Shown here: piece by piece, positions 1,861 through 45,881 of the stretch
Numbering within the stretch: position 1 is the first letter of the stretch
Layout of the letters: each line of letters begins with the position of its first letter
Assembly (NCBI RefSeq): GCF_905475395.1
Contig: NC_058338.1
Coordinates: 68,335,435 to 68,399,434, forward strand
DNA: 64,000 nucleotides
DNA from: Chrysoperla carnea
Taxonomy: Eukaryota; Arthropoda; Insecta; Neuroptera; Chrysopidae
Direction: 5' to 3'
Position numbers and translations under genes: made by a program
The notes under the pieces: generated by a model
The model's database searches: none
What the model was told of the DNA's origin: nothing
The model's input: only the letters and a program-made list of their open reading frames with translations

Positions 1861-2042
1861 CTGACAACAAGTGAAATTGTTACTGGCCATACAGTCATAT
1901 CTTTACTTCCAATTAAATAATCTTTAACATTTTTAGATACTTTAATAAATCCAAAATATATACCAATTACTAAACATATAAGTAACATTATAAGAAACAC
2001 TGCATAATCTGCCCAAGTAAACTCATTTTTGGGAATGTCCAT
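1861..2042 (-). CDS. Exon 1 of an SLC5 Na+-coupled transporter (gene 1, partial, continues off left edge)
   Basis: This is a 182-nt first exon from ATG at 2042 to the donor CAG|GTATGT at 1861. It encodes about 60 residues with the family start MDIPKNEFTWADY, transmembrane helix 1 with IYFGF, and the loop KVSKNVKDYLIGSKDM. It has the same length and phase as exon 1 of the four complete copies downstream. It differs from gene 3 exon 1 at five residues by hand count, and the flanking intron and 5' leader also resemble gene 3, so these two copies are recently duplicated. No exon 2 (pattern SGISFLG-PAE) lies in 1-1860, which is filled by palindromic repeats. Either intron 1 exceeds 1.86 kb or this is a solo exon. 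The start is supported by the conserved MDIPKN in genes 2, 3 and 4. Confidence 0.8.
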
Positions 2043-4040
2043 TTTTTTTACAACAATTTAAAAACATTTAAACAAAAATGTACCACAATTAGAAAGATTA
2101 TAATGAAAGTGATATATTTTCTATTTACCTACAACATATTCAGCCGGTGAATTTAATAAATTTTTCAAATTCAACTTTTAGCTTAATATTCTTATTTTAC
2201 AAAAAAATGGTAATGTCAAGCTATTGTAATTGGTATCGCCGTTCATCATAGCGTACGCGAATATAGTTCCCAGTGGGTTTCTCCGCAACTATAAAAGTTA
2301 CAAGTTTTTCGGTAGGTACGTTTGAACAGTGGATTCTTGATTTTAATTTTATACCAACCTATCTGGAATCCGGATATATATTCTTTCAAGGTATTTAAAA
2401 TGAGAATGGAAAACTTTTGTGGAATCATTTGCATTTTTTTCATCTATAATTACATTTGCGTTTATTTTTATACAAAGTGTTTATTAATTTTGAAGCAAAC
2501 CTCGTTATCAAACTGCGTAATAACGTGCCCAAGGACAATTTCAGTCTGTAATCCCACTTTTTTGACAAACATAGATTTAAAAAAAATGTAACTTCAATTT
2601 ACAAAAAAATCCAAAAGTGATCAGACTGTAACAAAAATTTCACATCCTGAAGTACCTACTGTCCAAATTTCACTCAAATCTTATATTTTCCAAAAAAAAA
2701 AAAAAAACGAGTGTAAAAATTGTTTTCCAACCTTTTTGATGTCTCCGTAGATTCTTTCCGAAACTATAGAAGCTTGAAGATTACAAATGAAGATGTAGTT
2801 TTGTGTTAGCGATTTATTCTAATTACTTACAAACCGTATTTGAGAATATTAAGAGAATGAAAACGGGACTGAAAAGAAAAATTTTATGTGGGAAGTAAAG
2901 TAAAAAATAAAATGTACGACACTTTTTCACCTGAAGATTTATTCGTTAAGTTAAATATTTACAGAAATTTACTTACGTTCAATGTTTTAAAATATAAATT
3001 TTGCAATTTTTCGGTAAGTAAGAGTAAAATAGAAATATCAACCATTAACCAAATTTTAGGAAATTATATTTTTTCATTTAATCCACTGTTAACTGTCTCG
3101 ATAAGTTTAATATTAACGTAAATTTTTACGATTTTAGAGTTCTACTTCTATATTCAAAATATTAATATGGATGTAAAGCCAAGATACAGGAAACCAATCC
3201 ATGTAAAAAAACGGAAATTTTCCAAAGAATTTGAATGCCCTATTTTTTTATAAACTGACATTTTGGGATCGCATAGAAAATGGCAACAAAAGTAAATTAA
3301 AAACGGTTTTTTAATTTTTTTTTAAATAGGCATTGTATTAAAAAAGTTTTGTAAATATTTATTTCGGGTCGATCTAGTCCAGTCCGACGCAAAAAATTGT
3401 TAAATGAGTAATTTATTGAAAAACAAAACCATTAAAAATGGTATTGTTTTTAATCGATTGTATTTCTTTGAAACAAATATATTTTAAACGAAACTTGCTG
3501 AAAATTTGGCCCTTGATAAGTCTAAGAATAGCATTTTTGCAAATATGTATATTGAGGAAATATTAGAAATAAATAAGTTTTTGTAAAAATTGATTTTTTC
3601 GTTTTTGTAAAAAGCGTTTTATTTTTTAAATTCCAAGAATCCGCCCGTTTTTATTTACGTTATTCTGTGCTTACAATTTTCTTCAATACTTGCCGTAAAA
3701 TGTGCGCTTATTACGGTCTTCGTTTATTATATATTGGTCGGAAAATTTATTGTAAAACATTGTGTAAGTATTTCCTCTTACTTATGCATAGAATATTAAA
3801 AAAAAAAACCCGTTCTGAAAACAGAATTTGATTTACATACAGGAAAAATTAGAAATTAAATTTAAAATCAAGTTTCCTGATGAAAATAATTTATTCGTTT
3901 ATGCTATAAAAATAATAATTTAATTTCGTTTTTATGTTTAATAAAAAAAAATTTTCAAATATGAATTGTGTTTTTCTGATTTATAGTTAAAAAATTAATT
4001 TGATTTATAATGATTTTTTCGATTGTTCTTCGATTGCTTT
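2043..4040. other. Intergenic DNA between transporter genes 1 and 2
   Basis: About 2 kb of AT-rich sequence with many A and T runs. I see no exon of the transporter pattern and no long frame on either strand. The first few tens of bases (2043-2110) resemble the 5' leader of gene 3. The right end (3850-4040) is the 3' flank of gene 2 and contains TTTATT at 3890-3895, a possible minus-strand AATAAA signal, though such hexamers are expected by chance here. Confidence 0.5.
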
Positions 4041-7000
4041 TTAGTTTGGACGACTTTCTTGTTCCTTTCTACTTAGATCTTTTTTCTTGTTTAACAAATT
4101 CACAGCTTCTTCCATGCATGTATTTGAATCGAATTTCTGAAAGTTACAAAATTTAATTACTTTCTGCAAGACCTTACAACTTTCTTTAAAGAAACATTGA
4201 TGCCAATAAACTGATCTTTGGCAAGACAGATTCTGGAACTCGAAGCCCAGTAAAAGTTACGAAAAATCCGAGCTTAAAGAATTTTCATAAAATGTACGTT
4301 TTTCAAATGTTACAATTTCATCTAAAGAGAGCACAAGTTCTTTTTTATGCAAGCTACTTGGAGTCCATGGAACCGAAAGAAGGAAGAATTGATAAAGGCA
4401 TTTTTTTACCCTTGCTTTAGAGTATCCTTAATATTATTGGATCGGACTGCCTTGAAATTAGGATCAATAAATCAACAATTCGAAGCTAACTACAAATTTG
4501 CAACCTTCTATTTTTTATAAATTTGGAAAAGCTCTGGAACCTAAAATTGTGTATAGCCATCAGGCAGAACTTTCCTGTTTCATTTTCTAGTTCTACGTGG
4601 CTTAAACACAAAACCCAGACTTATGGAAAATGAAATTGTTCTTAGATATTGCCTATTAATATCTAGTACCTCTTTATACTGTCGTTTATTTTCTGATGGA
4701 ATATTTTGAATAGTTTTTGGTCTCAAAAATGGTGCTAAATGTAAAGGATTCACATCTTCAATTTTATTAAAGCCAGTGAAGTAACTTATTATTAAACCAA
4801 AGATAATTGTAAATATGCCTCCAATTGCAAGGTACAGCATAAACGATATTCGATACAAGAAGAATACATTGCTGCAAAAAGAGAATTGTTATTATTTTGA
4901 TTTTGAAATGTTAAAAAATTTTTTACGTATCATCGTAGCCATCCCTTGTTGGCGGGATGCTCAAAGGCTCTGTAATATTAAATGTACACCCATCTGTGAA
5001 AACTGGTTTTATTGGATAACGGACATATCCCGAGGCTACCATTGATTGTGCGCCAAAACAAATCCAACTCATAAAGAATAGACCACTAAGACTCGCGTAA
5101 AATGCTCCCTAAAATAGAACAATTAATGGCGAATAGTAATTTTATACTCTTAAAAGGTCAAACTTAAGCTTAAGAAATATATCGTAAAAGTTCATTAATG
5201 AGTTCTTTCTTCTAAGGTAAATCAGACTCAAAAAATTGAAATTGTTTCTTGAAAAAATTGATCGTAAAACAAAGAGAGGCATCTCATAGGCTCTTTGGAT
5301 TGAATCTTGAATTGAAGGTCAGTTAACGGTCAACTTGTTTTCGTTACTGGTAAGAGAGAAGATCACTTTGAGTTTGAGAGATTTTACTTAGCTAACATTT
5401 TATTCGAAATATGAATAGATTCGGCAGAAATAGAATGTAAAAAGCGATTTATACATGAAAATGCCTTCTAAATTTGAAACTCTGTTTCGTCATGAGATAA
5501 GTTTTCGGAGTGCTCTTTTGAATGTCCCGGTGCGGTTTTTCTAAAACTTCCCTAAAAACCGAAATAAAAAGGCAAAATTTTGACAGATTTCCAAGATTAT
5601 TACTTCAAGTAAAGAAAGATCGTAATTTTATAAGGAAAATTTTTCTAATTTTAAGTGGTCTTCCATCTCTCATCTGCGAAGAGTGACCTCCATCTGTTCT
5701 TGAAAGTCAAGGTACAATGCCAGTTGCCTACGAGATGCCCCCGTTGATACATACCTACAAGCGATGTTTGAAACATTTTTCTGTATCTGATTAACCTTGG
5801 AAGCATTAAAAAGGTGGTTAAAGACTTTTGAGACATATTGTATAAATATATAGTAATATTTCCTACCTTTGCATTTGCCCATGGGAATAGAATTCCCAAA
5901 GTAAACACACCAAGCAAGGGCCCCGTAGAAATTGATCCAACAGTAACGTTTAACTACAAGCATATTAGTAAAAAATAAAAGGATAAAAATTTTTCTTCTG
6001 AAATATGCATACTTGAAATACTCCTCCTAACTTTTCTACCATAGATGCAAGTCCAATTGAAATAAATCCGATGACAAAAACGACAGTTTTTGCAATAATT
6101 TCTTCCTGTTTTGGGGTTAATTGCTTAAAAATAGGCTTAAAACAATCTTCCAATAAAACAGCTGCCAAAGAATTCAAGGCACTTGATAAAGTACTCAAAG
6201 AAGCACTGAAAACACCAGATAAAAATAATCCTGATGCACCAGGGTAATCTTTTAATGTGTCAAGAACTAGTAATGGTAAAAGTTGATCTTTTGTAGACAC
6301 AATCTGAAAATAAATTCTTTTAATGTAATATTTTTTTAATCTTAAAATGAACAGTATTTTTTACCTTTGTTGAAACAGGGTCGCAATTAAAATATGTTGC
6401 ATAAGCAACAAGTCCTCCATAAGCACATAATACCATAAAGATCGACTTTAGTATTGAAAATATCCAATATGTCCTATAAACAGGAAAACAAGAAAAGTTA
6501 CGGCTAGATACAAAGGCGAATACCAAACATTAATGAAAAGAGGCAAATACCAAACAGTATTGTATAACATTATGCGATGTTATTTATCTGTCTCTACACA
6601 TGCCTACATATACGTTGCTGTTTGGGGTTCGCTGCCATGTGCAGCCGCAGTATTAGGGTGTAAGATGATAAAAATGCCATGATATAAGAGTGAATAATAA
6701 TACCTTCGTAGTGACCTTTTTCATTGATTAGCATATTTAAAAAATATCTAAAAAATTAAGGATTGCTTGAATATTCTTCTAAAGAAAGGGCCAGGATTGA
6801 AATAGTACAATAAAAAAATAAATCATAGGTGCATACGTTTGAGCCTTTTTTAGGGTGGGTAAAGCAATATATCTTTGCATCCTCAACTGTTTAATAATTC
6901 CATCATTGATGAAAATAAATGTACCTCCAAGCACTGTAGCAGGAAATGTTAATCGTTTGGTTAAACTTAATTCCATGCTGAAAAAATTTAATGAGTATAG

Positions 7001-9844
7001 GTATCTCAATTATATTACAATTTTTACAAAAACTTTTTACAGATTTGCATCAAGAATTCATCTAAGCTCTTATTTACTGCAATTTTGTAGCGTCCCTTTC
7101 AATATATGGGTGCTAGAAATATTTTATTGGATTTTAATTGCTGTTTTTAGTTACCAAGTGAAGAAGTTACTATAAGTTTACGTCTTGACTATAACGTGAC
7201 TAATAAACAACTGGAAATCTACTGTCACTATTAATATAATCGGCAAAATTAACTCTTACTCCGGATATTCTAGCCTCTCAGTGGCTACATTACGTTCAAT
7301 TACCGTTCCCAATCCGCCAACATCCCATGTCGCTTTAATTAATACCAATAATAATGAACATATCATTAAAAATCCTTGGAGGAAATCGGTCCATACTACA
7401 GCCCGAATTCCACCCTAAAATAGATATTTTTCACAAATAGTTAGATCAATATTAAGAATAAGTAAGAAAAATCATTTTAATAATTACCACGCAAGTGTAA
7501 AAAATACAAACTGCGCAGACAATTGGGATTAAGATATTTGTATTTATTTCAGTTACTAAAACAAAAAGTATAACAATTTTTTGTATAACCATTTTAGACA
7601 CTTCGAAAGAATATAGGATGTCATATCTGATATTATAATATATTCTTATAAGTCTTATAAACTTATAAAAAAATCTTTTTTTGGAACTTGATGCCATAAA
7701 AATCCAGAAATTTAATTTTGCTGTATCATCATCCTATTTTTAACCTTCGAACTAAAAAAAGGGGTGTTATAAGTTTGACCGCCATATGTGTGTGTGTCTA
7801 TCTGTCTGTGGCATCGTAGCGCCTAAGCGGATGAACCGATTTTGATTTTTTTGGTTTCGTTTGAAAAGTAATTTAATAGAGAGTGTTCTTAGCTTAGGTT
7901 TCAAGTGCGAGTTTAGTTCCGTACTCGCAGAAACTAAAAAATTGGCGATGATCTTCGAAATTGGTTTAGTTTGGAAAAGTCTTTAAGGAAAACGATAATT
8001 TAATGAAATCAAAATTAGTATGAAATCTTCATAATATTATCCATTGAATAGAGGCATACCTACCATTCAAAAAGGGCATCATAGAAGTAAAAGATACCCA
8101 TTTGAATCGCTAAAGTATTTGCTTAACTCATTTTAGACAAAAGTAAATTCTAAGGTATAATTCTTAAACGAAAGAAATAATTAAAATATAACACTTAGAT
8201 AGGTACTTTGTTGTAGTTGAAGTGGAACAACTTACCATGATTTAGAGCCATTGCTGGTGCATATATTACAATTGGTAGCCTTAATACCTGAAAAAATTAA
8301 CGACACATATTAAGAGGCTATCAACGCATAGAAAAGGACCGTAAATCAGATTCAATTTTGTTAACATACCTGAGTGATAATGAATAAAAATGATCCAAGT
8401 CGTCGCAAAGATTTATCAAATCGTTGTTCTAAATACTGGAAATTAACAGAAATCTAATCTATTATGCACTGTGTTCATTTCAAAAGAATTGACTCTTAAT
8501 AACTGTAACACGTCGATTTAGATATCGAGGGTAAGTTCAAAAATGGTAACTAGAGAAATTTAGGTTTTACTCGTTCACTCCCAACCACCCCAACTTTGAA
8601 ATTTTAAATGGGATCTCTGCCTTGTAATACCTCATTTGAAAGGGCATACAATTTTATCTTCAACTTCGATAAAAAAAAATGAAATCGATTGATTGGTTCT
8701 TAAGATAGATGACTACCCAGAAAATGGAATTCATACCTTCCATCTTCAGTGTAGTTTATCTAAAAAACCATTTAATCGATTGCATTTTTTTGTCATGGCT
8801 GAAGAGAGAATTGTATGCCCTTTCAAATGAGGTATTACAAGGCAGGAGTGCCATTTATAATTTCAAAGTTGGGGTGGGTGGGGATGGGGGAATGAAACCT
8901 AAAATTTTTTAGGTATCATTTTTGAGCTTCCCCATTCATATCTATATCGACGTATTTTGATTCAAAACAATAAGCACACCAGGTCAAGAGTTATTAAGGA
9001 TGGATAACTTTCATCTTCTGTGTAGTCTATCTTGAGAACCAATCGATAGATTTCATTTTTTTTTTTCAATTTCTCCCTCGATACCTAAATTGACGTGTTT
9101 TCATCCAAAACATTATTCACATCATGTCAGGAGGTATTGAGGGTGGATACTTTTGAAATGAACACACTGTATAGAAGTGTACTCAACGTATATCATTTAA
9201 TACGAGAAAATGTAAATTAAACATCAAACGTCTTAAGTTAAACAAGTTTTGGGTAAAATAAAGCTCTTTGATATCACGAACCTCATAAGATGAAGTTAAT
9301 CGTAAATCCATAAAAACTGGTAAGTATATATAATTACCAATAAATCCCACCCATATGTCGTTTAATACTATGTAAAAAAATTGTATACCAAATGTATAAA
9401 CTTCAGCAGGGCCTCCCAAAAATGTTATGGCAGAGAGGTAGCTAAAAAGAAATTAAATATATTAATAAATATAATAAACTTAAAGAACAAATGAATTATA
9501 TAGAAGCCTTCTACTTTTATTTATTAGAACAGCCCGAAAAAAAGCCCGAAAAACTGCCGTAGTAACGAGATTTCGTTGCAGTTGAGTTAATAATAGACGA
9601 ATTCCAGCTAAAACTATCATAACAATTTTAATTCAAAATTTCAAAAGCAATTTTCGACTTACCCCATAACAAGTGAAATTGCCACTGGCCATATTGTCAT
9701 GTCTTCACCTCCAATTAAATAATCTTTAACATTTTTTGATACTTTAAAGAAGCCAAAATATACCCCAATTAAAAAACATATTAAGACCATTGAAAGAAAT
9801 ACTACATAATCTGGCCAAGTAAATACATTTTTTGGGATATCCAT
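4041..9844 (-). CDS. SLC5-family Na+-coupled transporter, SMCT/SMVT-like (gene 2, complete, 13 exons, 596 aa)
   Basis: Exons in transcription order: 9663-9844, 9282-9441, 8370-8435, 8236-8287, 7488-7555, 7260-7414, 6837-6977, 6365-6473, 6013-6303, 5867-5953, 4927-5108, 4670-4871, 4041-4136. All introns are GT-AG and the joined 1791 nt stay open to TAA. Recognisable SLC5 segments are FLGGPAEVYTFG (residues about 70), GGIRAVVWTDFLQ (about 177), ATYFNCDP (about 300), DQLLPLL then FSASLSTLSSALNSLAAVLLED (TM8, about 317-364), GPLLGVFTLGILFPWANAK (about 419-437) and the glycosylation site NIT (about 481). Length matches vertebrate SMCT (about 610). The family uses the Na+ gradient to import short-chain monocarboxylates, vitamins or related solutes; the substrate here is unknown. 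In the TM8 stretch expected to hold the Na2 ligands it reads ST where the paralogues read SS. An in-frame upstream ATG at 9856 would add MLNK, but MDIPKN is the conserved start. Confidence 0.92.
7738..7990 (+). repeat. Dispersed repeat family B copy in gene 2 intron 4
   Basis: The unit starts near GGGGTGTTATAAGTTTGACC, passes through a TGTG/CTGT microsatellite and the core GGCATCGTAGCGCCTAAGCG, then ATGAACCGATTTTGATTTTT, GAGTGTTCTTAGCT and GCGATGATCTTC. The same string order recurs near 34093, 38640 (inverted), 39005, 39660 and 56010 (inverted). From memory, very similar sequence is common in Lepidoptera and Hemiptera genomes. No coding content. Confidence 0.7.
8466..9172. mobile_element. Foldback (palindromic) DNA element in gene 2 intron 2
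   Basis: The terminal inverted repeat is TACAGTGTGTTCATTTCAAA (right end, read inward), with a slightly decayed left end at 8466. Most of the interior is also inverted: ACACGTCGATTTAGATATCG near 8509 faces its complement near 9080, and TAATACCTCATTTGAAAGGG near 8626 faces its complement near 8825. The element fills most of intron 2 and would extrude as a long hairpin. No transposase. Confidence 0.7.
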
Positions 9845-12115: not shown

Positions 12116-15100
12116 TCATGTGTTGTACTTTTCTTTTTCTTTACAACTTGAATTATTTCTTTTGTTCAATAAATCAACTACTTCTTCCATACAGATATTT
12201 GAATCGGCTTTCTGAAAGTTATAAAATATAAATTATACAAAACGTTTTTTTTTTCGAAAAATTAACTCTTTAATTGAGATTAATTAACCTCAACGAAGAA
12301 TTTTCTTGAGTAAATGAAATAACGAGTAGAATGATAAAGATTATTATACTATCTAATACCTCAACGTATGGCCGTTTATTATCAAATGCCTTCGTATCAA
12401 CAATTTTTGGTCTCAAGAACGGTGCTAAATGTAAAGGATTCACATCCTCAATTTTATTGAAACCAGTAAAGTAACTTATTATTAAACCAATGACTATTGT
12501 AAATATTGTACCCATTGTCGTGTACAATACGAATGTTATTCGATACATAAAGAATACATTCCTGCAAAAATTTAAAAAAAATTATGATTTTGTCTTTGAA
12601 ATATTAAACTAAGTAATGTTTACGTCTCATCGTAGTCGTCCAGTGTTGGAGGTGGGCCTAAAGGCTCTGTAATATTAAATGTACAACCATCAGTGAAAAC
12701 AGGTTTCTCCGGGTAATGTATATTTGATGATGCTATCATGGATTGACCACCAATCCATCCCATAAAGAATAGTCCACTCAAACCTGCATAAAATGCTCCC
12801 TAGAATGTCATTACATGTAATTAAGCTATCTGGTAAAGAGAGTGGCTGGGTGAAAAGACAGATAACGAATCCAACAACATACAACAGAAATGGTCAACTT
12901 GCGTTTAGATAAATTCTATTTTTTATCTTAAAACTGCCTAAAGATCGACTTTGATCGTAGGCGTAGTCCATGTGGGAAAGAACTTTATAAACCTAGAGGT
13001 AAACCATAAATATGGTAGAGACTTATCTGGATAATTGCCAATTGACTAATAACATCTTCTTAATCCAAGAGTCTAATAAATATATGAGGGAATATATGAA
13101 CTTACCTTAGAATTTGCGCATGGAAATAGAATACCCAAAGTAAACATACCGAGCAAAGGGCCAAATGAAATGGATTCTAAAGTTACGTATAACTAGAAAA
13201 AAAAAATGAAAATTCAAAATAATAAACCAGACTTTAAAATAATTTTGTAATACTTGTAATATTTGTCCCATTTTTGCTACTATTACAGCTAATCCAACTA
13301 TAACAACTCCTGTAACCAAAACCACTGATTTGACAATAATTTGTTCTTGTTTTTGACTCAATTGTGTAAAAACAGGCTTAACGCAATCTTCCAAAATCAC
13401 CGCAGCTAATGAATTTAAACCACCCGATAAAGAACTCAGAGATGCACTGAAAACACCAGCTAAAAATAATCCAGCTGCGCCAGGGAAATCTTTTAAAGTA
13501 TCAACAACTAGTAATGGTAAAAGTTGATCTTTTGCAGATACAACCTGCAAATAAATTCTAATTACTTTTTTATATTTTCCAAATATTAGACATTTTTGTT
13601 ATTACATTCGTTGAAACCGGATCGCAATTGAAATAAGTTGCATATATAACAAGGCCTGCGCAAGCACATAATCCCATAAAGAGTGTTCTAATTACAAAAA
13701 ACAACCATGTTACCCTAAAAATAAATCAACTTGTAGTTAAAGTTCCACATAAAGGTCCTTACATAATGCTTTTGTAATAATGTAAGTCTTCACATACATG
13801 GAACATACTTTTTAGCGTCTTTTAGGGTGGGCAATGACATGTATCTTTGCATCATAACTTGAGTAATCATTCCATCACTGATGATATTAAAAGTTCCTCC
13901 AATTAATATTGTAGGAAATGTTAGTCGTTTGGTTAAACTTAATTCCATGCTGAAGAAAAACAACGATAAAATTTTATTTATATTGCAAAAAGTACTTCTA
14001 GCAAAAAATCGTTATATATATGTGCAATCACGTATATGAAAACGGAATATATGGTAAACATAATGTATGAGGCTGGATTGTTCTGTTTTTCACATATTTA
14101 TATTAGCATCACTTGGAGCTAACAATGTAATAAAATCTTAGAAGTCAATTTAAATCTACTTCTAATTGTCTTTTTAACTCGAGAAACTCTCTTTAGTATT
14201 TCTATAATATTATCTAGAAGTATAAATATTAATCTCGACGACGAGATGGGGCTGTGGCTATGGCACCCGCTTCTCATGAGCAAGTAGGTAATAAAAGATC
14301 TTTTTTATTCTATTTTGTAGCCGATCTTTAACTTACCGAGTGTAAAAAATAAGAAAATAAGTTATAGTAGAAGAAAACTTAAAAAACATGCTTTATTATA
14401 CTAAAAAGTGGATAGTAATTTTAATTGTATTATTAAGGTCGTGGAGTGCACCTCACGCTTTGAATTGTACATAAAAATTAAAACTATTAGTACCTGTTTT
14501 TTGAGGCACAAAGGCACAAATTTTATCAATAATATAAGAACAATTTAAAATGTCTCTACACAAATAGCAAATTGAATGTCCCGACAATTTACTTTATTTC
14601 GTCGCCAATAGATGTCAAGAAGAGTCATATTAAACGATGTTTTCTAAAAATAAAACCTAGCTAGATCGATTTTTCGCCCCAATTCTCTTTGTAATGTAAA
14701 AGCATGCTCTTTTAGTTAAATTATAATTTATTCATATAACGAACTTTGTTTCCTAAAAACCGAACAACCGCATAAGTTATGCTTGACAAATATTTCTTCG
14801 ATGTTTTCCATATAACGATTTTCTTTGGTACTGTCTTTATATATTTCTTTGGCACTGTCTTGATAAGTAAAATTTAATTAATAAATTAATAAGTAATTAC
14901 TCTGGGTATTCCAATCTTCCGCTAGCCATATTACGCTCGACAACTGTTCCCACTCCACCAACTTCCCATGTCGCTTTGATTAACACCAATAACATTGAGC
15001 ATACCATTAAAAATGCTAGAAGGAAATCGGTCCATATAATAGCACGAATTCCACCCTAAAATTAAATATTTTAAAATTAGCTTTTTTCCTTGGATTACAG

Positions 15101-18100: not shown

Positions 18101-18581
18101 AATTCAAGAAACATAACATTGCAATTTAAAAATTTATAATTACAAGTTAACTTGTATAGTTTAAAATTGTATAATCATACACTTATTGAAAGTAATTACA
18201 AATTTTTTAAATTGCGATAAATGTATCGAGTTTCCTTGAAAATATTTTTGCATTTTCTGCTATCTCTTAGTATTTAAAGATAGATAAACATTGTCAAAAT
18301 AAAAAATGTCAATTCCAAAGTTTAAAGTAAGCTCCTTTAGGGCCGAATTCCGATAAAAAAACATTAATGCCAAATCCTGAATAATATTTAACAACATACC
18401 TGACAACAAGTGAAATTGTTACTGGCCATACAGTCATATCTTTACTTCCAATTAAATAATCTTTAACATTTTTAGATACTTTAAAGAATCCAAAATATAC
18501 ACCAATTAACAAACATATTAGTAACATTATAAGAAACACTGCATAATCTACCCACGAAAACTCATTTTTGGGAATGTCCAT
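12116..18581 (-). CDS. SLC5-family Na+-coupled transporter, SMCT/SMVT-like (gene 3, complete, 13 exons, 594 aa)
   Basis: Exons: 18400-18581, 17375-17534, 16801-16866, 16665-16716, 15121-15188, 14901-15055, 13809-13949, 13606-13714, 13254-13544, 13106-13192, 12624-12799, 12360-12561, 12116-12211. The joined frame is open from MDIPKNEFSW to TGA. Family segments present are FLGLPAEIYVFG, GGIRAIIWTDFL, ATYFNCDP, DQLLPLL, FSASLSSLSGGLNSL, GPLLGMFTLGILFPCANSK and the NIT glycosylation site. Oddities: intron 4 uses a GC donor (CAAG|GCAAGT); exon 11 is 176 nt rather than 182, losing two codons so that WICFGAQ of the paralogues reads WIGGQ; TM8 reads SGG where the others read SSG or SSA; the PWANAK motif reads PCANSK. 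All events are in frame, so the gene looks functional but may differ in substrate or kinetics. Intron 4 carries a full-length SINE. Exons 2-12 are most like gene 2, but exon 1 is most like genes 1 and 5. Confidence 0.9.
15776..16114 (+). mobile_element. tRNA-derived SINE (family S1) with 16-bp target-site duplication
   Basis: Identical flanks ATTAAAACAGATATCC at 15776-15791 and 16099-16114 bracket a 307-bp body (15792-16098). The 5' part resembles a class II (Leu/Ser-like) tRNA: an A box-like GGCGAGAGGTCTAAGCG and a B box GGTTCGAATCG. The middle and tail are not tRNA-derived and end in GGGGTTTAA read on the other strand, followed by an ATT microsatellite. The perfect duplication shows recent LINE-mediated insertion into gene 3 intron 4, opposite to the gene. 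A second, 5'-truncated copy lies at 41051-41322. Confidence 0.88.
16663..16665 (-). other. Non-canonical GC splice donor of gene 3 intron 4
   Basis: On the minus strand the exon 4 end reads AATCAAG|GCAAGTTTT. The equivalent donors in genes 2, 4 and 5 read CATG|GTAAGTT. Position, phase and flanking AAG/AAGT match the GC-AG intron consensus, in which a strong surrounding match to U1 snRNA offsets the T-to-C change. No nearby GT keeps the frame and the conserved exon length. Confidence 0.8.
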
Positions 18582-22558: not shown

Positions 22559-22820
22559 CAAAAACTTGGAATATACCAAAATTATTAATAAAAGATGGTA
22601 TTAGAATTAAGGAACAACTACGAACACATTTTGATACTCATATATAATGTACAAAAATTGGCAATAAATTCTTTTTGTCTTTTCTCCTTAAAAAAAAACT
22701 TTAATTTTAAAATTTCTCCATCACTATTCAAAATTACTTTCAAAACAACTCAAAATGAGAATGGAAAGCTTTTGTGGAATCAGTTTTAATTTTTTAATTC
22801 ATAATTACATGTGGTATATA

Positions 22821-26801: not shown

Positions 26802-27000
26802 TATATATCTAAATAAAAAAAATAAAAATGCATTACATATTATAAAATAAAATTTTTATAAAATAATTCGAATATTTATCTAATTTTTCTTTAACAACTT
26901 TTTGTTTTGGATCGCTTAATTATATTATTTAATTTATATGTAGTTAAATCAATTTGATTTATAAATTTTTTTTTTCACTTGATATTAGATAATTGTCTTG

Positions 27001-33000: not shown

Positions 33001-35458
33001 CCATTGACAACAATGCTAATAATCTCGTTTGTGACATAGTTCTACGAAGAAATGCAAGAAAATATTCGCAACGCGAGGTTTATGTACGGACAAATGTCTT
33101 AGGCGACCTTTTTGTTAATTATTTCACGTATTCTTGAGTTTGCAGAAATCCTCGAAAAATGTAACTGCTCATTTCCGAAATTTGTGACATCAGCAGGAAA
33201 ATCACTTATGATATTGGCTTTGCCATATCGATAAAAAAAGAAAATTGCGCCGCTTCCAAAATTTTCCTGCATTAGACAATAGTCTAATTAGCCCTTACGT
33301 AAATACACCTCTGTTCTTTACAATATACCTTTGGCCATTTTCATCAAATACATCATAAAATAATCATCCAAACTTAATTGTGATTTTTTCTATAAAATTT
33401 TAACTTACCATGATTGAGAGCCAATGCAGGTACATAGATTACTATGGGAAGCCATATTATCTGAAAGATAACCAAATAATAATATTATTGATTACCGGAA
33501 CCTGCCACTTGTGATCGGCATGCCTAATAAACAGAAATATTTATACTATATCTCCTAGTCTTTGCTGAAAATGCTAAATTGGTTCATGTCCTAAAAAAAT
33601 ACTATGTTCTAAGCCGTAAAAGACAGAAGAAATATTTCACAGCAAAAACTGTCTTTTTACAAATTTAAAAAGTTTTGAAACTTTTGATAAATCTAATAGA
33701 TTTGATAAACGCAATTTTATGTCAATGAACTCTGATAAACTCTTCTTATATGTAAATTTGATCGCTATTTTGATACTTACCAGACTGACAACGAATAAAA
33801 CTGATCCAAGCCGTCGCAATGATTTATCAAATCTTCTTTCTAAATACTAAAAAAAAGGATATTTAATAGAAAATTATACGTTATTGTACAAGAAATTGGC
33901 TAACATTCAGAGATGATCAAAATCTAGGCTTTAGACTGTTGGAGCTTTGGCAGTCCAATGTCAGTAGATCCCATATAAAAGTAAAAAGATGTGATTAATT
34001 TATTTTTAAAAGATGCGACATTCCTATGTTATGACTAAGCTACTTTTTAAGTTAAGTAACCAGGAAAATTGAGTGTCTTTTTGTGTATTTTTAATCCCCC
34101 GAACCAAAAAAGGGATGTTATAAGTTTGACCGCTATGTGTTTCTGTCTGTCTGTGCTATGTTTCGAGTGCGAGTTTAGGGCTCCATACCCGGAACAACTA
34201 CAAACAGGCGATGATTCTCAAAATCGGCCCAGTTTGGACAGGCTCTGATAAATAAGGTAATTTATTGGAGAGTGTTCTCAGATACGATTCCGGTGCGAGC
34301 TTAGTACCCGAAAAATTTCTCGGGGTGTTTTTAAATTTTGTCAATTTTACTTGTCCGAATAAAAGAAATCACTTACAATCACTCACCTCATACGTTGAAG
34401 TTAATCGCAACTCCATAAAAACTGGTATAAATATATAATTGCTAATCAATCCGATAAATATACCACTTGTTTGTATATATAAATATTGTATTCCAAATGT
34501 ATACATTTCAGTAGGGTAGCCCAAAAATGCAATGCCAGAAATATTGCTACGAAATAAATTTTGAAATTTATAATTTCCTTATATCAAACCATATAGTATA
34601 CCCTGAAGCTAATAATTGACAGGCAAAAATTCGTCTTAGATAAAAATATAAGGAATTGCAAGTTTAAGCAAGACCTTTGCTTTGAGACTGAAATCGACAA
34701 CTGTGTAAAGTAAAATAAACGGGATGTATTTACACCGAAATGCGCTTACAAATCAAGGCAAAAACTTGTTTTTTCGAAACGTTATAGTTTTGGAACGAAG
34801 AGGTTAGCTGTGGACATATTTTTTTATCAAGAGGATGCAAATGTCGTAATACAAGTAAAAACGTACTTTTTCTCGAGTGATTACTAACCCAAATAAAAAA
34901 TGTTTTAAGTTTATCACAACGAAGCCACACGAAGTCTCTTTCTGCTACTGTTTATAATTCTTGTAAAAAAGAGTCTTGAATTGTGGTCTGGTAGTTTTGC
35001 AATATCTGGTTAAGATGTTTTCTCATATTTATTTGAGAATCATGTATGCATTTGAGGATAATTTTACTGTAAACTTTAAGTTAGATAACGATATTAACAA
35101 CTTTTGTTCCACATTTTTTGAAAAAACTTTTGGAAAATTGAGGATAGTAGTGCGTAATGTAGAAAAAAAATAGTTTAATTCAAAAGTTATTTCTATTTTG
35201 ATAAATAGATTTATAATAAAAAATAGATTTACTATCCAGACTGGCAAAATTGATGAGTTTTATATTTTTAACGTACCTGACAACAAGTGAAATTGCTACC
35301 GGCCATAAAGTCATATCATTGTCTCCAATTAAATAATCTTGTACATTTTTCGATACTCTAATAAATCCAAAATATACACCGATAAATATACATATCAATA
35401 ACATTATAAGAAACACCAAATAATCTGGCCAAGCGAATACATTTTTTGGAATATCCAT
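27001..35458 (-). CDS. SLC5-family Na+-coupled transporter, SMCT/SMVT-like (gene 4, complete, 13 exons, 596 aa)
   Basis: Exons: 35277-35458, 34387-34546, 33781-33846, 33409-33460, 32430-32497, 32200-32354, 30411-30551, 29985-30093, 29212-29502, 29061-29147, 27920-28104, 27657-27858, 27001-27093. All introns are GT-AG and the frame is open to TAA. Segments seen are MDIPKNVFAWPDY, FLGYPTEMYTFG, YLERRFDKSLRRLGS, GGIRAVVWTDFLQ, ATYFNCDPVSTK, DQLLPLL, FSASLSSLSSGLNSLAAVLLED, GPLLGVFILGVLFPWVNAK, FGAQSM and the glycosylation site NIT. Exon 11 has one extra codon and exon 13 one fewer than gene 2, so total length is equal. From exon 2 onward it pairs with gene 5 (PTEMY, RRFDK, LTPKQEQ, KFGTN), while exon 1 shares NVF-WPDY and WPVAIS with gene 2. 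The exon 2 loop TSGIFIGLISNYIFIPVFME is the most divergent of the set. Intron 6 holds a long-TIR element; introns 2 and 4 hold repeats. Confidence 0.92.
28602..28624 (+). repeat. C13/T10 homopolymer junction in gene 4 intron 10
   Basis: A run of 13 C (28602-28614) is followed directly by 10 T, in an otherwise AT-rich intron. On the transcribed strand this is A10-G13. It may be prone to length variation or sequencing error. Confidence 0.8.
29632..29700 (+). repeat. Two-copy 35-bp tandem duplication in gene 4 intron 8
   Basis: GAATATAGGGACATTTAT-(A/C)-A(n)-TACATT occurs at 29632-29666 and again at 29667-29700. It lies between exons 8 and 9 and makes this intron (482 bp) much longer than its 58-61 bp counterparts in the other copies. 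Confidence 0.8.
30625..31999. mobile_element. Long-TIR DNA transposon relic (about 1.37 kb) in gene 4 intron 6
   Basis: The two ends are inverted copies of about 285 bp (30625-30910 and 31716-31999). Both start TGCAAAAGGTCGGGTAGTTT, contain AAGTTTTCCACCTCGGGGTG and CTCGCGAACGGTTTATTTTA, and end near GGCTGAA. The arms diverge little, so the insertion is not ancient. The GC-rich stretch GCGCGCC inside the arms stands out from the AT-rich host. No clear target-site duplication is seen. The interior (30911-31715) keeps only the tail of a coding sequence, described separately. Confidence 0.82.
31130..31440 (+). pseudogene. Frameshifted C-terminal fragment with cysteine-rich CXC-like motif, inside the TIR element
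   Basis: Read on the plus strand, 31132-31220 gives PESLLKMISCNCKKACK, then NSCGCRKAGL, a Cys pattern like the Tesmin/TSO1 CXC (zinc-binding) domain. About one base is missing near 31222; in the shifted frame the rest of the pattern (CTCSLGESCEN) and an acidic tail (FEDEDDM, FPLDEENKE) continue to TAA at 31436-31438. Only the end of the parent protein survives. The likely parent is an element-encoded protein, perhaps a transposase; I recall similar cysteine-rich C-termini in unnamed insect proteins but cannot name the superfamily. Confidence 0.55.
32930..33320 (-). pseudogene. Possible hAT-type transposase C-terminal remnant in gene 4 intron 4
   Basis: Minus-strand reading gives MSQTRLLALLSMESINVMDY around 33040-32980, like the end of the hAT dimerisation domain (pattern TRL-ALA-LSIE). 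Upstream fragments (SDFPADVTNFGNEQLHFSRI) are in a neighbouring frame with breaks. Short, broken and without visible TIRs, so identification is tentative. Confidence 0.3.
34093..34340 (+). repeat. Dispersed repeat family B copy in gene 4 intron 2
   Basis: It contains GGGATGTTATAAGTTTGACC and CTGTCTGTCTGTG, then skips the CGTAGCGCC core and resumes at TTTCGAGTGCGAGTTTAGGG and GGCGATGATTCTCAAAATCG. An internally deleted copy compared with 7738-7990. Confidence 0.6.
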
Positions 35459-38230: not shown

Positions 38231-41200
38231 TTATGGTAAATAATTATTTTTTTCTGCACAGCCTGAATCTTTCCTTTTGTTTAATAAATCAACAGCCTCT
38301 GTCATGCAAATATTCGTACCAAATTTCTGAAATAACAATATATTTAAAATGAGCTTTAGGCTTATTAAAAATCTTGAGAGATGAATTAAATAAATAAAAG
38401 TTGGGAATGCAATTTAATTTTGCAATATATCCATGTCTACTTTACACTGTGGGTTAATTGCGCTTCCACCATATTTATAAAGCTCCATCAAAATTTTCCC
38501 TAATTTATTTAAAAATTATGGATCCAATGTTTGCAAAATGATGGAATGTGAGACAGTATTTTGTTGAGTCAAAATAATAATTTCTCCGTGGAAATAAATA
38601 ATTTCTTGATGGTTTCGGAACGATATTGGAGGAAATTGTTTACTTGTTGTAAGTATCGAGGGCATTCGCAGTACAAGTGAAATTTACAAAATTTAAAAAA
38701 CCTCCGATAAAATTTTTCGAGTACGGAATTTTAAACACGCACTTGCCCTTCAAAAGAAACCAAAAAAAATGAAAATCGGTTTATCCGTTTAGGAGCTATG
38801 ATGCCACAGACAGACACACACACACAACAACACACGCATAGCGGTCAATCTTAAACATCCCTTTTTTTAGTTTGGGGGTTAAAACCCACTCTGGCCAAGT
38901 AAATTATATACTCAAATTAATACTTTATTTATTTAATTGCGTAAATAAGTTCTTGTTTCAAGAAAATGAAATGTGAGAAAAATTTTTGAAGAGTCAAATA
39001 CTTATTTTTAACCCCCGTACTAAAAAAAGAGGTGCTATAAGTTTGACCGCTATGTGTGTGTGTCTGTTGTCTATCTGTGGCATCGTAGCGCCTAAACGGA
39101 TGAACCGATTTTAAATGTTTTGTGGTTTCATTTGAAAGGTAAATTAACGGGGAGTGTTCTTAGCTATGTTTCAAGTGTGAGCTTAGGTTTCCGTGTCCGA
39201 AAAAACAAAAAAATTGGCGATGATCTTCAAAATCGATTCAGTTTGGAAAGGCATGACATAATTTAAATATATAAAAAAATTACTATAGAAATGAATGGTC
39301 AAATAAACATGGCTCAATTCATTTCGAAAAGTGAAATGGTCAAATAATTTGGTAATTCAAAACAATAATTCAAAAGAACAAACTCAACTCTAATTTCTCA
39401 ATCCCAAAAATGATAGCTCTCTAAATATCCTTTTCATCATCTGATGAAATTGGCCATCACTTTCATGTTGATTTAAGAAGGAGTGTTATGTGTTTATCTG
39501 TGCGTCTATGTGTTTTGCTCAGTGGCATCGTAGCCCCTAAACGGTCGAACCGACTTGATTGAGAACATTTTATGGCTAAATTTCCAAAAATCGGTTTACA
39601 ATAAATAAATCGCATTTGTCGGGGTTTTTTTAAATTTTGTAAATTTCATTGGTTTTTTTTTTTTAACTCCCGAATTAGAAAAGGGGATGTGTGTGTATCT
39701 TTCTGTGTGTGTGTCGGTCTGTCTGTGGCATCGTAGTGTCTAAACGGACATTTTGATTTTGATTTTTTTGGCTTTGTTTGAAAGGTAATTTAATGGAGAG
39801 TGTTCTTAACTGTTTCAAATGCGAGTTTTGAAGTCCGTAGTCGAAATTTTGTCGGAGGTTTTTTAAATTTTATAAATTTCACTTGTTTACTGTGTAGACA
39901 CTATTGACATTTTGAAACTTTTTAAGGGATATGTCCAAAGGGTTTGGCAATGCAAATGAAAAACACTTTCGAAGAAGGCGCTTACCTCAATGTATTGCTG
40001 TTTATCATTATTATTTTCTAATGGTTTAAAATTTTTTGGTCTCAAGAATGGTGCTAAATGTAAAGGATCCACATCTTCAATTTTATTAAATCCAGTAATA
40101 TAACTTATTATTAATCCAAGAATAACTGTAAATATTGTACCAATTGCTGTGTACAATACAAATGTTATTCGATACATAAAGAAAACATTCCTGCAAAAAA
40201 TGAGTAAATTATATTTTATTTTGAATTCAAAAAAGTAACGAATATCTTACGTTTCATCGTAGTTATCCATTGGTGGAGGTGTGGCTAAAGGTTCTGTAAT
40301 ATTAAATGTACAACCATCTGTGTAAACAGGTTTCTCTGGATAGAGCATCAGTCCCTGTGCTAACATTGTTTGGGCACCAAAACAAATCCATCCCATAAAG
40401 AACAGTCCGCTAAAACCCGCATAGAAAGCTCCCTAAAATAGAATATTTCATATTAAATAGGGGATCGTACTAAATTTTTTTTATCACTTCAGATGAAGAA
40501 TTCTGACTTTAAGAATAGAAAAGTTGGTTGCTAAAAATCTTTACTAGTATGCAAGATATGAAGGTTTAAAATTCCTAATTAAACAAAGATACCCTCTAGT
40601 GACGTCATACGTGGGTATCGCCATAGAGATTACATATAAAACTTTGTTATGCTAAAAGGAGATGGACAACCTTTGAATTATACTTAAGGCCTATTGAGAT
40701 TGAGATTTCTTTTGCACTCACCCAGTTATTTTTCTATAAATTTATTTTATTTTGGTTTGATTGACAAATAAACTTAGTAGTTGAAAACTTCAAACCAACC
40801 CATTGGTTCACAGCGAGGAAGAAACTAATTGATTTTGTTAATTGTTATAAAAAGAAAATGATAAACTTTTGTGAAATTATTTACAGGTTTAACTTAGCCA
40901 GCAACTTCTAAGTTTCATGTGATTAAAGTCATGTCCATAGAGAACTTGCATAAATTTTTATTTGTCGCAAATTCATATATAAAGGAATGAATAATTCATC
41001 TAATGTATATTTAAGTAACTTTTTTAAAATCAATTATTCGATTTTTTTTATTAATAATAATAATAATAATGGGGTTTAACCTCCGTTTCTCTGACATATA
41101 CGCCTATAACAGAGGCCACCCACATCATTATTTGTTAATCTTTATTTATTTAATTACAAGCATATTTACAATTACATTTTGATGTGGATGGAGTCGGTTA

Positions 41201-44200
41201 CTTCGTTCTTATCCAAGCGACGACAATGTGATCAATTCTACACTCCCATTAATTATAAATTATTCACACTGCCGCTGCCTGGATTCGAACCCACAACCTA
41301 AGTCTAAATGGACAAACAGTCAAATTTGATTAATTATTAATAAAAAAGAATTATATTTTGTAATAAAAAAAAAAACGGTAGTGGCGTATTTACAATCGTT
41401 GAGGCAGCGAGCCAATCGGAATTACGCTAAATACACATTTTTCAATTTGTTTCTATGGAAAATTACGTTATAATATGTTGAAAGCAAGTTTAGAAACAAA
41501 CCATTTATATTCTGCATGTTATTTTATCATTTATCCGGGTGGTGGCGTTGCTTAAAACGATGTGTTGGCGTCACTGGCGTTTAAATTTATAGTTTAGAAA
41601 AATCCTTTTCTAATTTTTTTTAAAACAATTTTTTTAGGAATTTTTGAAATTAAAAAAAAAAATTAAAAAATATGCAAGTTCTCTATTGAAGATAATAAAC
41701 ATATAATGCTCTCACACAACAGTTAAAGTTTTATAGAAATGCTAATCTTTGTAAATAAACAATAAGCGATACATTCCACAATCCTAGACAGACACTTGAA
41801 TTTTATCTAAATTCGATGGATTAGATTTATAATAGGGTCGTTCACAAAATCAAATTATTAAAAACACAATGAGTCACAACATTGATTTAATAAATGAGAA
41901 ATTAAATTAAGTAGAAAATGATAGTCTAGTAAAACTATCTCATCATGAAGAACGAAATTCTGAGTTTTTTCTTTCCAAACTCCAAAAATTTTTATTAATT
42001 AAAGAGCTTAAATTCTCTATAAAAATGTGTTCAAACCAAAAGTTTCGTATTTTGTACGGGATCTGAGTATATCGTGATTGAATAGTTGCACATGCTTTAA
42101 GATGTTAAAGACTGCCATCTCAAAAAAAGGCGTGTCATTTTATATAAAACTGCAGAAGCAAAAATCGCACGAGAATGAAATATAAACTAAACAGTGGAAC
42201 GTTTGCGAAATAGGAGTCTTTCCATTACACTTCCCGAAAAACGTAAAGTGGAGAATAATATCTCGCACCATCCTTAAAAATTGTAAGGGCCACTTCTTTA
42301 AATTCAATTGTTGATCTTTTTGACTTTTAAAAATTTATTTTTGGCAACTTTACTCACCTTTGCATTTGCCCATGGGAATAGGATACCCAACGTAAACACA
42401 CCAAGCAAAGGACCTGATGAAATCGATCCAAGCGCAGCGGATAACTAAAAACAAATTCAGAATCAAAAACAATTTTTTATTTTTATGTATTAATTTATTA
42501 TTAATTTTTTATGAAAATTTACGAACCTGTAATATTTGTCCTAATTTTGCTACAACCGCAGCTAATCCAACTGTAAGAACACCTGTAACTACAACCACTA
42601 TTTTTACAATAGTTTGTTCCTGTTTTGGAGTCAATTTTGTGAAAACAGGCTTAAAACAATCCTCTAATAACACAGCTGCCAATGAATTTAAACCACTCGA
42701 TAAAGAACTAAGTGAAGCACTAAAGACACCAGCCAAAAATAATCCAGATGCGCCAGGAAATTCTTTTAAAGTATCAACAACTAATAATGGTAAAAGTTGA
42801 TCCTTTTCAGATACAATCTAAAAATAAATTTATAAGTAATTTTTAAAAATATAGACGTTTATTTCTGAGACTTACATGGGTTGAAACAGGATCGCAATCG
42901 AAATACGTAGCGAAAATAAGCAGGCCTGAATAAGCACAAAGTCCCATAAAGATTGTTTTACATATCAAAAATAACCACACTACTCTGAAAGGAAAATAAA
43001 AAAGATTTTTAAAAAGTGTTTAGAAGTTGGTTTTGAAAATTGTTTTGATTCTTTAACATAGTATAATTTTCAAATTATGATTTAGGTTAAAATGGAAAAT
43101 AAAATCCTTAATTATATCGTTTACTTACGTTTTAGCTTCTTCTAAAGAAGGTAAAGAAACATATCTTTGCATCATCACTTGATTAATAATTCCATGATTT
43201 ATTACACTAAATGTACCACCAAACATCATAGCAGGGAATGTTAACCGTTTGGTTAAACTTAATTCCATGCTGAAAGAAATATTACAGAAAACACTATAAA
43301 TCTATATATATTCCAGGGAGCAGCTACCATTGTCGCAGTTACTATTTGTATGATTTATTGAAACAACTACCTTCGATACTCTCCAGTATTGAAAGTAATT
43401 GGGCACGGGTGACCCTAGATTTTGGTCCGAGGAGAGGCCAGTAATTTTTGTCTAAAGGGGTTGTGTCTGTGAAACTGTAAAGCTAAAGCCCTATTTACAA
43501 TCACTCCATACGCTTGTCAGAATGTGATCCTGACTAAGGTGTAATTAATAAAATTTGAATCAATTATTCGCATGATAGAAATAAACGAGTATAATTCTTA
43601 CTCTGGATATTCCAATCTTCCGGAGGCTACATTACGTTCGATTACCGTTCCCAATCCGCCAGCTTCCCATGTCGCTTTTACTAGCACCAAAAGAACTGAG
43701 CTAACCATTAAAAATGCTTGTAGAAAATCAGTCCAAATTACAGCACGAATTCCACCCTAAAGTGTAAATATTTCTCATAAAATACCATTATTATTTTGTC
43801 ATTAAAATAAATTTCATAATTACCACGCAAGTGTAGAAAATACAAACTGCACAGACAATTGGTGTTATGACATGCGTATTTATTCCAGTTACTAAAACAA
43901 AAAATATTTAACTGGTATTGATAAATTATAAAGGCCGGAGATAGTAGATATGATCACAATGCTGTAGCTGGTACGAATTTGTCTTTTTTGTTTCCGGATT
44001 TAAGGCTCTCAGGAAAAGAGGTTTTACCATTTGTTATAAAAATCGAAAAATTTTGTGGACCAAAAAATTCGCTTATCAAGCAAAATTGATACTTCTGAAT
44101 TTAAAGACTTGTGTCTTCTGAAATAGTCATCGCACGAAAATTTGTATCGTAACATTCGAAATCTTCTTTTAATCTCTTGTAAATTGTTCCGAACAAAAAT

Positions 44201-45881
44201 TTTATCACTCTCCCATTTTTAAAACATGCCAATTTTTTAGCAATAGATTCTAAAACTAGTAAAAGTTTTCAAATGAGCTATTTTGGTGCCAAATTCGATA
44301 ATTTTTCGCAGAACTGTTTAAATACTTTACTACATACTTTTGATGAGTACCTATAGTTGAAATTAATAAAAAATGTGGATGTTTGATCTTGACAACATAC
44401 AACTTACCATGGTTCAGAGCTAATGCTGGTACATATATTACAATTGGAAGCCATAAAATCTAAAATATAATAAGAAATATTACTTTTGGTTGTTTTTCTG
44501 AATATTTGGTTAAGGATTCTAATAACTCATTCCTAACTGCATTAACAATGGTACATTTAATGGTTAGGGGGACTAGATTTCTTAGATATAAACGCTTTAT
44601 AAAAGTCAGTGTTTTTATTCTATCGATTGGCCATGCGATATGCTATATGCATTCTCTCACAAGGCAATTTTGTTCAAAAGTGGTTTAAATTTTCAAACAT
44701 TTTCATCCATTAAGTTTTATTTAGAACACTGTTATGTGTTTTGGATGAATAATTAATTAAATTGATACATACCACACTAACAATAAATAAAATTGATCCC
44801 AGTCGCCTCAAGGATTTGTCAAAACGCCGTTCTAAATACTGAAACAAAGAGTGGGCAAAAGTATTAATGCATATCCTACATGATCGTTCGAAGTTAATGA
44901 AATGATATCAATAAATTTTGCTTACCTCATAAGTCGAAGTTAATCGCAAATCCATAAAAACAGGTAAATATATATAATTACCAATAAATCCCATACATAC
45001 GCCATCGAATAATATATACAAATATTGTATACCAAATATGTACATTTCTGTAGGGAAACCCAAAAATGATATTCCAGAAATATAACTAAAAAAAGTATGA
45101 TAATAATAACTATTATTTTTAATAATCATAAATCGATTTATGTCCGCAAATTTTTGTAAATAAACTAAATTTTACATGTTAAAGTACTTTTTGCAGTTTT
45201 TCTATATGAAGGTAGATTTCGATTAATTTAAGGTAATCTAATGATTATTATAACTAGGTAGAAGTTCTAATAAAAATAGGGCCTTCGAAACCGTCTCCCA
45301 AGTGATGAGAATGTCCTAAGCATTCCCCGAAATGTCTTATGTTTACATAAGTAGTAAGTGCTCAGTTTTTAATGTTATAGACACTTGATTACCTGTACGT
45401 TTATAACATGTAACTTGCCCGTCTCGTCAAGTGCCAAGTGATGGAATTGTTTCACGGGGACTGTCTAACCAGCCAGGTATCATCATTAAGCCCTTAGATA
45501 ATCGAAATATCCGCACATGGGCAGGATAGACTTGTGCCGTCTTTTTCTTCTAGCCTTCGTAAATCTACTTTGGCGTAGGCCATAGTCCGGCCTCGGATAC
45601 GAAACCATGTATGTATATTGAGTGAAAATTGAAAATATATACAAATTGTAGGTACACTACAAAAATAATTCGATAATTACACTCTATTTCTCAACATACC
45701 TGACAACAAGTGAAATTGTTACCGGCCATACAGTCATATTTTTACTTCCTATTAAATAATCTTTAACATTTTTCGATACTTTAATAAATCCAAAATATAC
45801 ACCAATTAACAAACATATTAGTAACATTATAAGAAACACTGCATAATCTACCCAAGTAAACTCATTTTTAATAATATTCAT
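38231..45881 (-). CDS. SLC5-family Na+-coupled transporter, SMCT/SMVT-like (gene 5, complete, 13 exons, 597 aa)
   Basis: Exons: 45700-45881, 44926-45085, 44773-44838, 44408-44459, 43824-43891, 43602-43756, 43129-43269, 42876-42984, 42527-42817, 42358-42444, 40251-40432, 39986-40190, 38231-38326. All introns are GT-AG and the frame is open to TAA. Segments are SGISFLGFPTEMY, YLERRFDKSLRRLGS, GGIRAVIWTDFLQ, ATYFDCDP, DQLLPLL, FSASLSSLSSGLNSLAAVLLED, GPLLGVFTLGILFPWANAK, WICFGAQTM and the glycosylation site NIT. The start MNIIKNEF differs from MDIPKN in the paralogues. An in-frame ATG at 46004 would add a 41-residue hydrophobic leader, which I did not use because no paralogue has it. Exon 12 has one extra codon. 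Intron 10 (1.9 kb) carries a SINE and repeat D; intron 12 (1.7 kb) is packed with repeat B. Confidence 0.91.
38640..39885. repeat. Cluster of dispersed repeat family B copies in gene 5 intron 12
   Basis: At least three units are recognisable: inverted 38640-38885, forward 39005-39255 and forward 39655-39885, plus a shorter piece near 39480-39640. Each has the GGCATCGTAG core, the AAACGG box (or its complement) and GAGTGTTCTTA or GGCGATGATCTTC where complete. They explain why this intron is about three to eleven times longer than its counterparts. Confidence 0.7.
41051..41322 (-). mobile_element. tRNA-derived SINE S1, 5'-truncated copy in gene 5 intron 10
   Basis: On the minus strand it begins at GTTTGTCCATTTAGACTTAG, keeps the B box GGTTCGAATCC and the same body as 15792-16098, and ends in an ATT-type microsatellite (41051-41070). 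About the first 45 bases, including the A box, are missing, as expected from incomplete reverse transcription. No clear target-site duplication. It lies in the same orientation as the gene. Confidence 0.82.
41366..41630 (+). repeat. Interspersed repeat family D, copy 1 (gene 5 intron 10)
   Basis: It starts after a run of A with GTAGTGGCGTATTTACAATC, continues GAGCCAATCGGAATTACGCT and GAAACAAACCATTTAT, and ends CGATGTGTTGGCGTCACTGG. A reverse copy is at 51455-51690. Family undetermined. Confidence 0.65.

Follow-up and report, generated by a model that had tools for sequence, protein, structure and literature searches.

A tandem array of intact SLC5-family symporter genes under purifying selection in the neuropteran Chrysoperla carnea

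Why does an insect genome hold several similar transporter genes side by side? This question is raised by a stretch of 64,000 nucleotides in the genome of Chrysoperla carnea (559 Mb; assembly GCF_905475395.1), hereafter the window (contig NC_058338.1, here C2; C2:68,335,435-68,399,434). A first-pass annotation had described at least five tandem genes of SMCT/SMVT-like SLC5 transporters on its minus strand, at positions 1861-45881. We observed there four complete genes of 13 exons each (B, C, D and E) and exon 1 of another (A), with end points exactly matching those first proposed. The whole array contains six genes arranged head to tail on the minus strand (Z, A, B, C, D and E), gene Z and most of gene A lying to the left of the window, and nine such genes were found genome-wide. 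The array looks like an ordinary tandem gene-family expansion of known kind. We consider it probable that an SLC5/SSF sodium:solute symporter gene was expanded in tandem and that its copies, intact and under purifying selection, encode carriers with a divided substrate range or expression.

The gene models were obtained with our own spliced protein-to-genome alignment, which permits stop codons and frameshifts at a penalty and imposes GT or GC and AG as intron ends. We ran it on the minus strand, over the window and a further 50 kb to its left and 20 kb to its right. None of the six array genes required a stop or a frameshift to be aligned, and each is terminated by its own stop codon, yielding proteins of 585-597 amino acids (aa). 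The absence of premature stops and frameshifts first noted in the window thus extends to the whole array. With a query taken from another copy, the six genes scored 2064-2350 (gene E also scored 2867 with a query pieced from E itself), whereas the flanks from -49999 to -29000 and from 46500 to 84000 scored 96 and 104 on the minus strand; this difference excludes a match by chance. No further copy was found in these flanks by minus-strand spliced alignment, and none was listed there by a six-frame genome search. Since canonical intron ends were imposed by the method, they do not represent independent evidence for the models. Such evidence comes from intron placement, which is identical in the nine copies and largely shared by a more distant gene described below. 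GC donors were observed in two introns: intron 4 of gene C (GCAAGT, window 16663-16664) and, in gene Q (a copy at C2, 90.816 Mb), the intron that follows exon 8.

All array genes lie on the minus strand, and their positions are given in window coordinates. Gene E (38231..45881; 597 aa) consists of exons 45881-45700, 45085-44926, 44838-44773, 44459-44408, 43891-43824, 43756-43602, 43269-43129, 42984-42876, 42817-42527, 42444-42358, 40432-40251, 40190-39986 and 38326-38231. Gene D (27001..35458; 596 aa) consists of exons 35458-35277, 34546-34387, 33846-33781, 33460-33409, 32497-32430, 32354-32200, 30551-30411, 30093-29985, 29502-29212, 29147-29061, 28104-27920, 27858-27657 and 27093-27001. The exons of gene C (12116..18581; 594 aa) are 18581-18400, 17534-17375, 16866-16801, 16716-16665 (followed by the GC donor), 15188-15121, 15055-14901, 13949-13809, 13714-13606, 13544-13254, 13192-13106, 12799-12624, 12561-12360 and 12211-12116; those of gene B (4041..9844; 596 aa) are 9844-9663, 9441-9282, 8435-8370, 8287-8236, 7555-7488, 7414-7260, 6977-6837, 6473-6365, 6303-6013, 5953-5867, 5108-4927, 4871-4670 and 4136-4041. 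Exon 1 of gene A occupies 1861..2042, and the 12 exons that follow are found to the left of the window, down to -6219. Extending the search leftward, as had been advised, recovered gene A complete (589 aa) and, beyond it, gene Z from -9160 to -20858.

To look for copies elsewhere, we searched the whole genome in six frames with protein E, exon by exon, and scored the best 73 of 156 candidates, so that our counts of SLC5 genes are lower bounds. Three further intact genes were found, each made up of 13 exons with introns placed as in the array: genes P and Q on C2 at 90.80-90.82 Mb, 22 Mb from the array, and gene S on contig C3 at 3.42 Mb. All nine genes of the subfamily have open frames. Because their introns are kept, genes S, P and Q spread by DNA duplication and not as retrocopies.

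All six array proteins match the SSF domain PF00474 at E<=0.001 (gene E: 137.6 bits against a cut-off of 22.8) and the family model TIGR00813 (gene E: 282.3 against a cut-off of 184). Compared with solved structures, a profile of the array scored 398 bits with SMCT1 (SLC5A8; 7sl9), 345 and 343 bits with NIS (SLC5A5; 7uuy and 9zfl) and 338 bits with SMVT (SLC5A6; 26va), and lower with a bacterial symporter (5nv9; 183 bits), SGLT1 (~97 bits) and the choline transporter SLC5A7 (28 bits). SMCT1 aligns over nearly its full length and is 34-37% identical to the nine copies; SMVT has the same overall architecture but is just 33-34% identical to them. By these comparisons, the array proteins are predicted symporters of the SSF/SLC5 family, within the branch of NIS, SMCT and SMVT.

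The exon structure had been singled out as near-frozen. Indeed, the lengths of exons 1-10 do not differ among the six array genes (182, 160, 66, 52, 68, 155, 141, 109, 291 and 87 bases). Exons 11, 12 and 13 of genes B, C, D and E measure 176-185, 202 or 205, and 93 or 96 bases, respectively. Agreement to within one or two codons therefore describes the window genes well except at exon 11, whose spread reaches three codons, between C and D. Over the six genes, exon 13 ranges from 63 bases (Z) to 96, with 81 in A. Most of this structure is older than the array. The closest other gene found, V (C4, 28.38 Mb), is 44-50% identical to the copies, and its exons after the first measure 226 (160 + 66), 52, 68, 155, 141, 109, 291, 87 and 185 bases. 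V and the array agree in intron phase, and intron positions are kept through exon 11, save that exons 2 and 3 form a single exon; the model of V starts at codon 6 of E, and exon 12 (145 bases) and the final exon of V are either different or uncertain. Three more distant genes (W, U1 and U2; ~40% identity) share the layout in part. Because V has most of the same intron layout, the exon structure is largely inherited and not a special feature of the array.

These results suggest the following course of events. A single ancestor with an exon layout much like that of V would have been duplicated repeatedly as DNA, leaving six genes head to tail, a pair on the same contig at a distance of 22 Mb and a single gene on C3. 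Each copy is predicted to encode a membrane carrier of the LeuT fold, driven by the sodium gradient through conserved sodium-site residues, and its cargo would be a small organic anion or a nutrient of similar kind, as for NIS, SMCT1 and SMVT. The copies appear to differ at some residues of the ion and substrate pocket and probably also in the place or time of their expression, so that substrate range or expression, and not dosage alone, may be partitioned among them.

The copies have been maintained by selection. The ratio of nonsynonymous to synonymous divergence (dN/dS, or omega) was 0.16-0.31 in all 36 pairs of the nine copies, with dS of 0.18-0.75. A one-ratio codon model (M0; 581 gap-free codons) gave an omega of 0.186, and under model M1a ~79% of the codons evolve at an omega of 0.11 and the remainder at 1. 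The pairwise values lie far below 1 throughout, in line with the purifying selection and maintained frames first suggested for these genes. We also compared the DNA of five gene pairs. In four of the five, the alignable stretches were mostly exons, the exception being A/C. Since introns have mostly diverged past alignment, the conservation of exons reflects constraint and not youth.

Whether the copies differ in function was addressed at positions equivalent to pocket residues of NIS, whose numbering we use; these positions come from alignments at ~30-37% identity. An excerpt of one article (PMC12892324) gives Q72, S416, F417, S69 and Y144 as sodium-coordinating residues of NIS and Q72 and Q94 as iodide-site residues, and an excerpt of another (PMC7034854) assigns S353 and T354 to the ion pocket in a model. 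All nine copies carry Ser at the position of S69, and all nine carry, by alignment, hydroxyl residues at Ser348 and Ser/Thr349 (S353 and T354), the latter being Thr in B and Ser in the others. NIS likewise has Ser/Thr at these three positions, as has SMCT1 at S353 and T354. We take these last hydroxyls to belong to the Na2 site, and our allocation of residues to Na1 or Na2 is an assumption throughout. In contrast to NIS, the iodide-site glutamines are not kept in any of the nine copies: residue 67 (Q72) is S, T or A and residue 89 (Q94) is D or G. The pocket aromatics W255 and Y259, present as Trp/Tyr in SMCT1, are gone from the nine copies as aligned, apart from a Phe at 255 in genes B and D. 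At residue 257 (N262), Lys is shared by Z and B, Thr by A, C and S, and Asn by E and Q, while D has Ser and P has Asp. At residue 260 (Q265), Z and B have Arg, and the remaining seven copies have Met.

A sodium frame that is partly kept and a pocket that is partly varied would suit carriers with different substrates, and a division of substrates among the copies is likely but unproven. Two observations weigh against the favored reading of the array. First, NIS-type sodium coordination is not fully conserved: the position of Y144 (residue 139), which is Tyr in SMCT1, is Trp in eight of the nine copies and Arg in B, and the position of S416 (residue 410) is highly variable, with Ser in A, E and Q, Asn in B and S, Tyr in C, D and P, and Arg in Z. 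Second, the 41 positions of the NIS pocket were not significantly more variable than the rest (mean omega 0.243 vs 0.218; P = 0.20; core positions, P = 0.11), which leaves substrate divergence weakly supported.

It is possible, although we do not favor it, that the copies were kept for dosage or partitioned expression only, all carrying the same substrate and serving to supply more protein or tissue-specific expression. The strong purifying selection and the lack of significant enrichment in the pocket would both fit this, and so would the Drosophila SLC5A paralogues rumpel, bumpel and kumpel, which an excerpt of their description (PMC8790523) presents as partly redundant. On the other hand, protein identity between the groups A/C/S, B/Z and D/E/P/Q is just 67-77%, and the charges at NIS-pocket positions differ, with K257 and R260 in Z/B, T257 in A/C/S and D257 in P. 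A more specific proposal concerns the Z/B clade, in which B has Arg at the position of Tyr144, Z has Arg at that of Ser416 and both have Lys/Arg at those of Asn262/Gln265. These residues suggest that one NIS/SMCT-type sodium site could have been rebuilt with a fixed positive charge. Transport by such carriers may be coupled to a single sodium ion per cycle, with a substrate that bears more negative charge than those of the neighboring carriers, and the array members would then differ in ion coupling; we regard this as quite unlikely.

The first-pass annotation had proposed purifying or diversifying selection on a lineage-specific expansion, as would be expected for diet- or host-related uptake. 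An adaptive expansion driven by diet, host plant or the sequestration of plant compounds seems to us unlikely. Adding a class of positively selected codons brought no gain in M2a over M1a (likelihood-ratio statistic of 0), and the comparison of M7 and M8 was not significant (twice log gain 3.7; p 0.16). Only M8a against M8 reached a borderline value (one-sided p 0.03). This signal comes from 0.6% of the sites, chiefly from the variable residue 410 (posterior 0.90). Because the site models were run with our own implementation on one fixed topology with some weak nodes, and with branch lengths fixed in proportion to those of M0, such borderline p values are not to be leaned on, and the site models give diversifying selection no firm support. 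A role in sequestration is conceivable, because an excerpt of a blister-beetle paper (PMC8576976) includes an SLC5A12-like (SMCT2-like) transcript in its list of possible homologues of proteins involved in salicin sequestration in the leaf beetle Chrysomela populi. Against an adaptive expansion, the available part of a study that surveyed SLC families across 174 arthropods (PMC7487162) counts SLC5 among five dietary-sugar families but reports significant taxonomic variation in SLC2 and SLC60, and not in SLC5. The absence of enrichment in the pocket set also speaks against adaptive diversification.

Could the copies instead be true orthologues of SMCT or SMVT, with monocarboxylate or vitamin transport inherited by descent? 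SMCT1 is indeed the closest solved structure, and the label SMCT/SMVT-like stands to that extent. However, in a tree of 17 sequences, among which SLC5A12 and named arthropod proteins were not included, NIS, SMCT1 and SMVT form one clade (support 99.6/100) and the nine copies a separate one (98). The copies did not group with SMCT1 to the exclusion of NIS and SMVT, nor did they group with SMVT. The deeper joins of the tree with V, W and U1/U2 are weak (bootstrap 53, 32 and 33). In addition, a fragment elsewhere in the genome, W2 (C2:78.90 Mb; first 226 query residues aligned), shares 50% identity with SMCT1 and 46% with SMVT, against 36-42% with the nine copies. Orthology is thus very unlikely: since the array clade stands apart in the tree and W2 is closer, the label can denote resemblance only. 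By sequence, the array represents a separate subfamily of the NIS/SMCT/SMVT branch and not the local SMCT or SMVT, for which W2, although partly modelled, appears to be a better candidate than the array genes.

That the copies are artefacts or decaying genes (haplotypic duplications, mis-assemblies or drifting pseudogenes) is hardly credible given dN/dS far below 1, nine open frames, zero N in the 134 kb examined and dS of 0.18-0.75, which is probably too high for haplotypes, even if an orphan exon 1 on C3 implies that partial copies may arise. This exon (C3:4074556-4074737) lies 0.66 Mb from gene S and differs from exon 1 of S at one of 60 residues; no convincing downstream exon was found in the 5 kb beyond it.

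Under the tandem expansion that we favor, the history of the copies can be traced in part. The clades A/C/S and B/Z are each supported by 100% bootstrap, and the branching order among D, E, P and Q is unresolved. Both trees place S beside A within its clade (support 86 and 92), whereas pairwise dS is lowest between A and C (0.18, against 0.26 for A-S and 0.31 for C-S). The trees and the dS values thus conflict on whether S departed before or after the split of A and C. The 3' ends of A and C are followed by 210 bases of common spacer DNA (79% identity), and five common stretches of 28-216 bases (71-89%) lie upstream of them. Since spacer DNA is shared on both sides, the duplicated unit was a genomic block that held the gene together with its flanking DNA. 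The gene order Z, A, B, C, in which Z/B and A/C are sisters, would fit an en-bloc duplication of (Z,A) into (B,C), but membership of Z and B in the block is unsupported: no spacer match like that of A/C was found beside Z and B, and the dS of Z-B (0.52) against that of A-C (0.18) weighs against a two-gene block. Gene conversion was considered on account of exon 1, which is 92-95% identical among A, C and E, with 69-90% in the other exons of A/E and C/E. The case for it is weak. When 173 silent columns were examined with a Sawyer-type run test, p<0.05 was reached in only 2 of 36 pairs (A-Q, 0.04; A-S, 0.032), and these signals fail correction and miss the suspected pairs.

The surroundings of the genes provided several additional observations. 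The spacer between C and D (18700..27000), outside the genes, contains broken retroelement-like frames on the plus strand and an inverted-repeat element. The frames (19151-21701) resemble by eye a retroelement without long terminal repeats, with zinc-knuckle and reverse-transcriptase pieces; none of the four frames scanned gave a Pfam match at E<=0.01. The inverted-repeat element (22181-23928) has two pairs of arms, of 171 and 154 nt, which are 81% and 84% complementary. Related pieces occur at 53.6-55.2 kb, at about -10 kb, at 82.3-83.0 kb and in the spacer between Z and A (-8.5 to -8.2 kb; window coordinates). To the right of the array, exons of a flavin-containing monooxygenase lie on the minus strand at 52707-54461 (Pfam FMO-like; E 1.8e-14 and 3.2e-05). 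We also counted words in the 300 bases before the nine start codons. The word AATTCAC occurs 97-138 bases before the ATG in six of the nine copies (A, B, D, E, Q and S), and AATTCA occurs at 95 in C; it may possibly be a core promoter element.

Elsewhere in the genome, a nearly intronless SSF frame with one internal TAA lies near the end of the chromosome-size contig C1 (C1:139145617-139149708) and is the best PF00474 match in the genome, at 94.7 bits. Beside it are two frames that, by eye, we take to be similar to IS66-type transposases. The stretch would be bacterial, endosymbiont-like DNA, either inserted or present as contamination. The 30-mer of TTAGG, the common arthropod telomere repeat, has 323 matches in the genome and that of TCAGG has none, as fits an arthropod; interstitial TTAGG arrays were observed at many places in C1 (e.g., C1:68107279-68107418).

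In the literature we found no report of a tandem expansion of SLC5, SMCT or SMVT genes in insects or beetles, coverage being poor for subscription journals; one paper on the NIS family, mainly on vertebrates, was found. An excerpt of a study of Anopheles stephensi (PMC11764013) describes one putative SMVT orthologue. For Drosophila, the available part of the description (PMC8790523) gives 14 or 15 SLC5A genes in all, including rumpel, bumpel and kumpel, compared with nine of a single subfamily here. Set beside them by description, the array resembles these genes in comprising several insect paralogues. The nine-gene subfamily of C. carnea adds to this known pattern. It is both multi-copy and constrained in one genome, in which another gene matches SMCT and SMVT better, and its copies, with a common scaffold and differences at a few positions of the pocket, form a natural set for asking how the substrate and the ion coupling of SLC5 carriers change.

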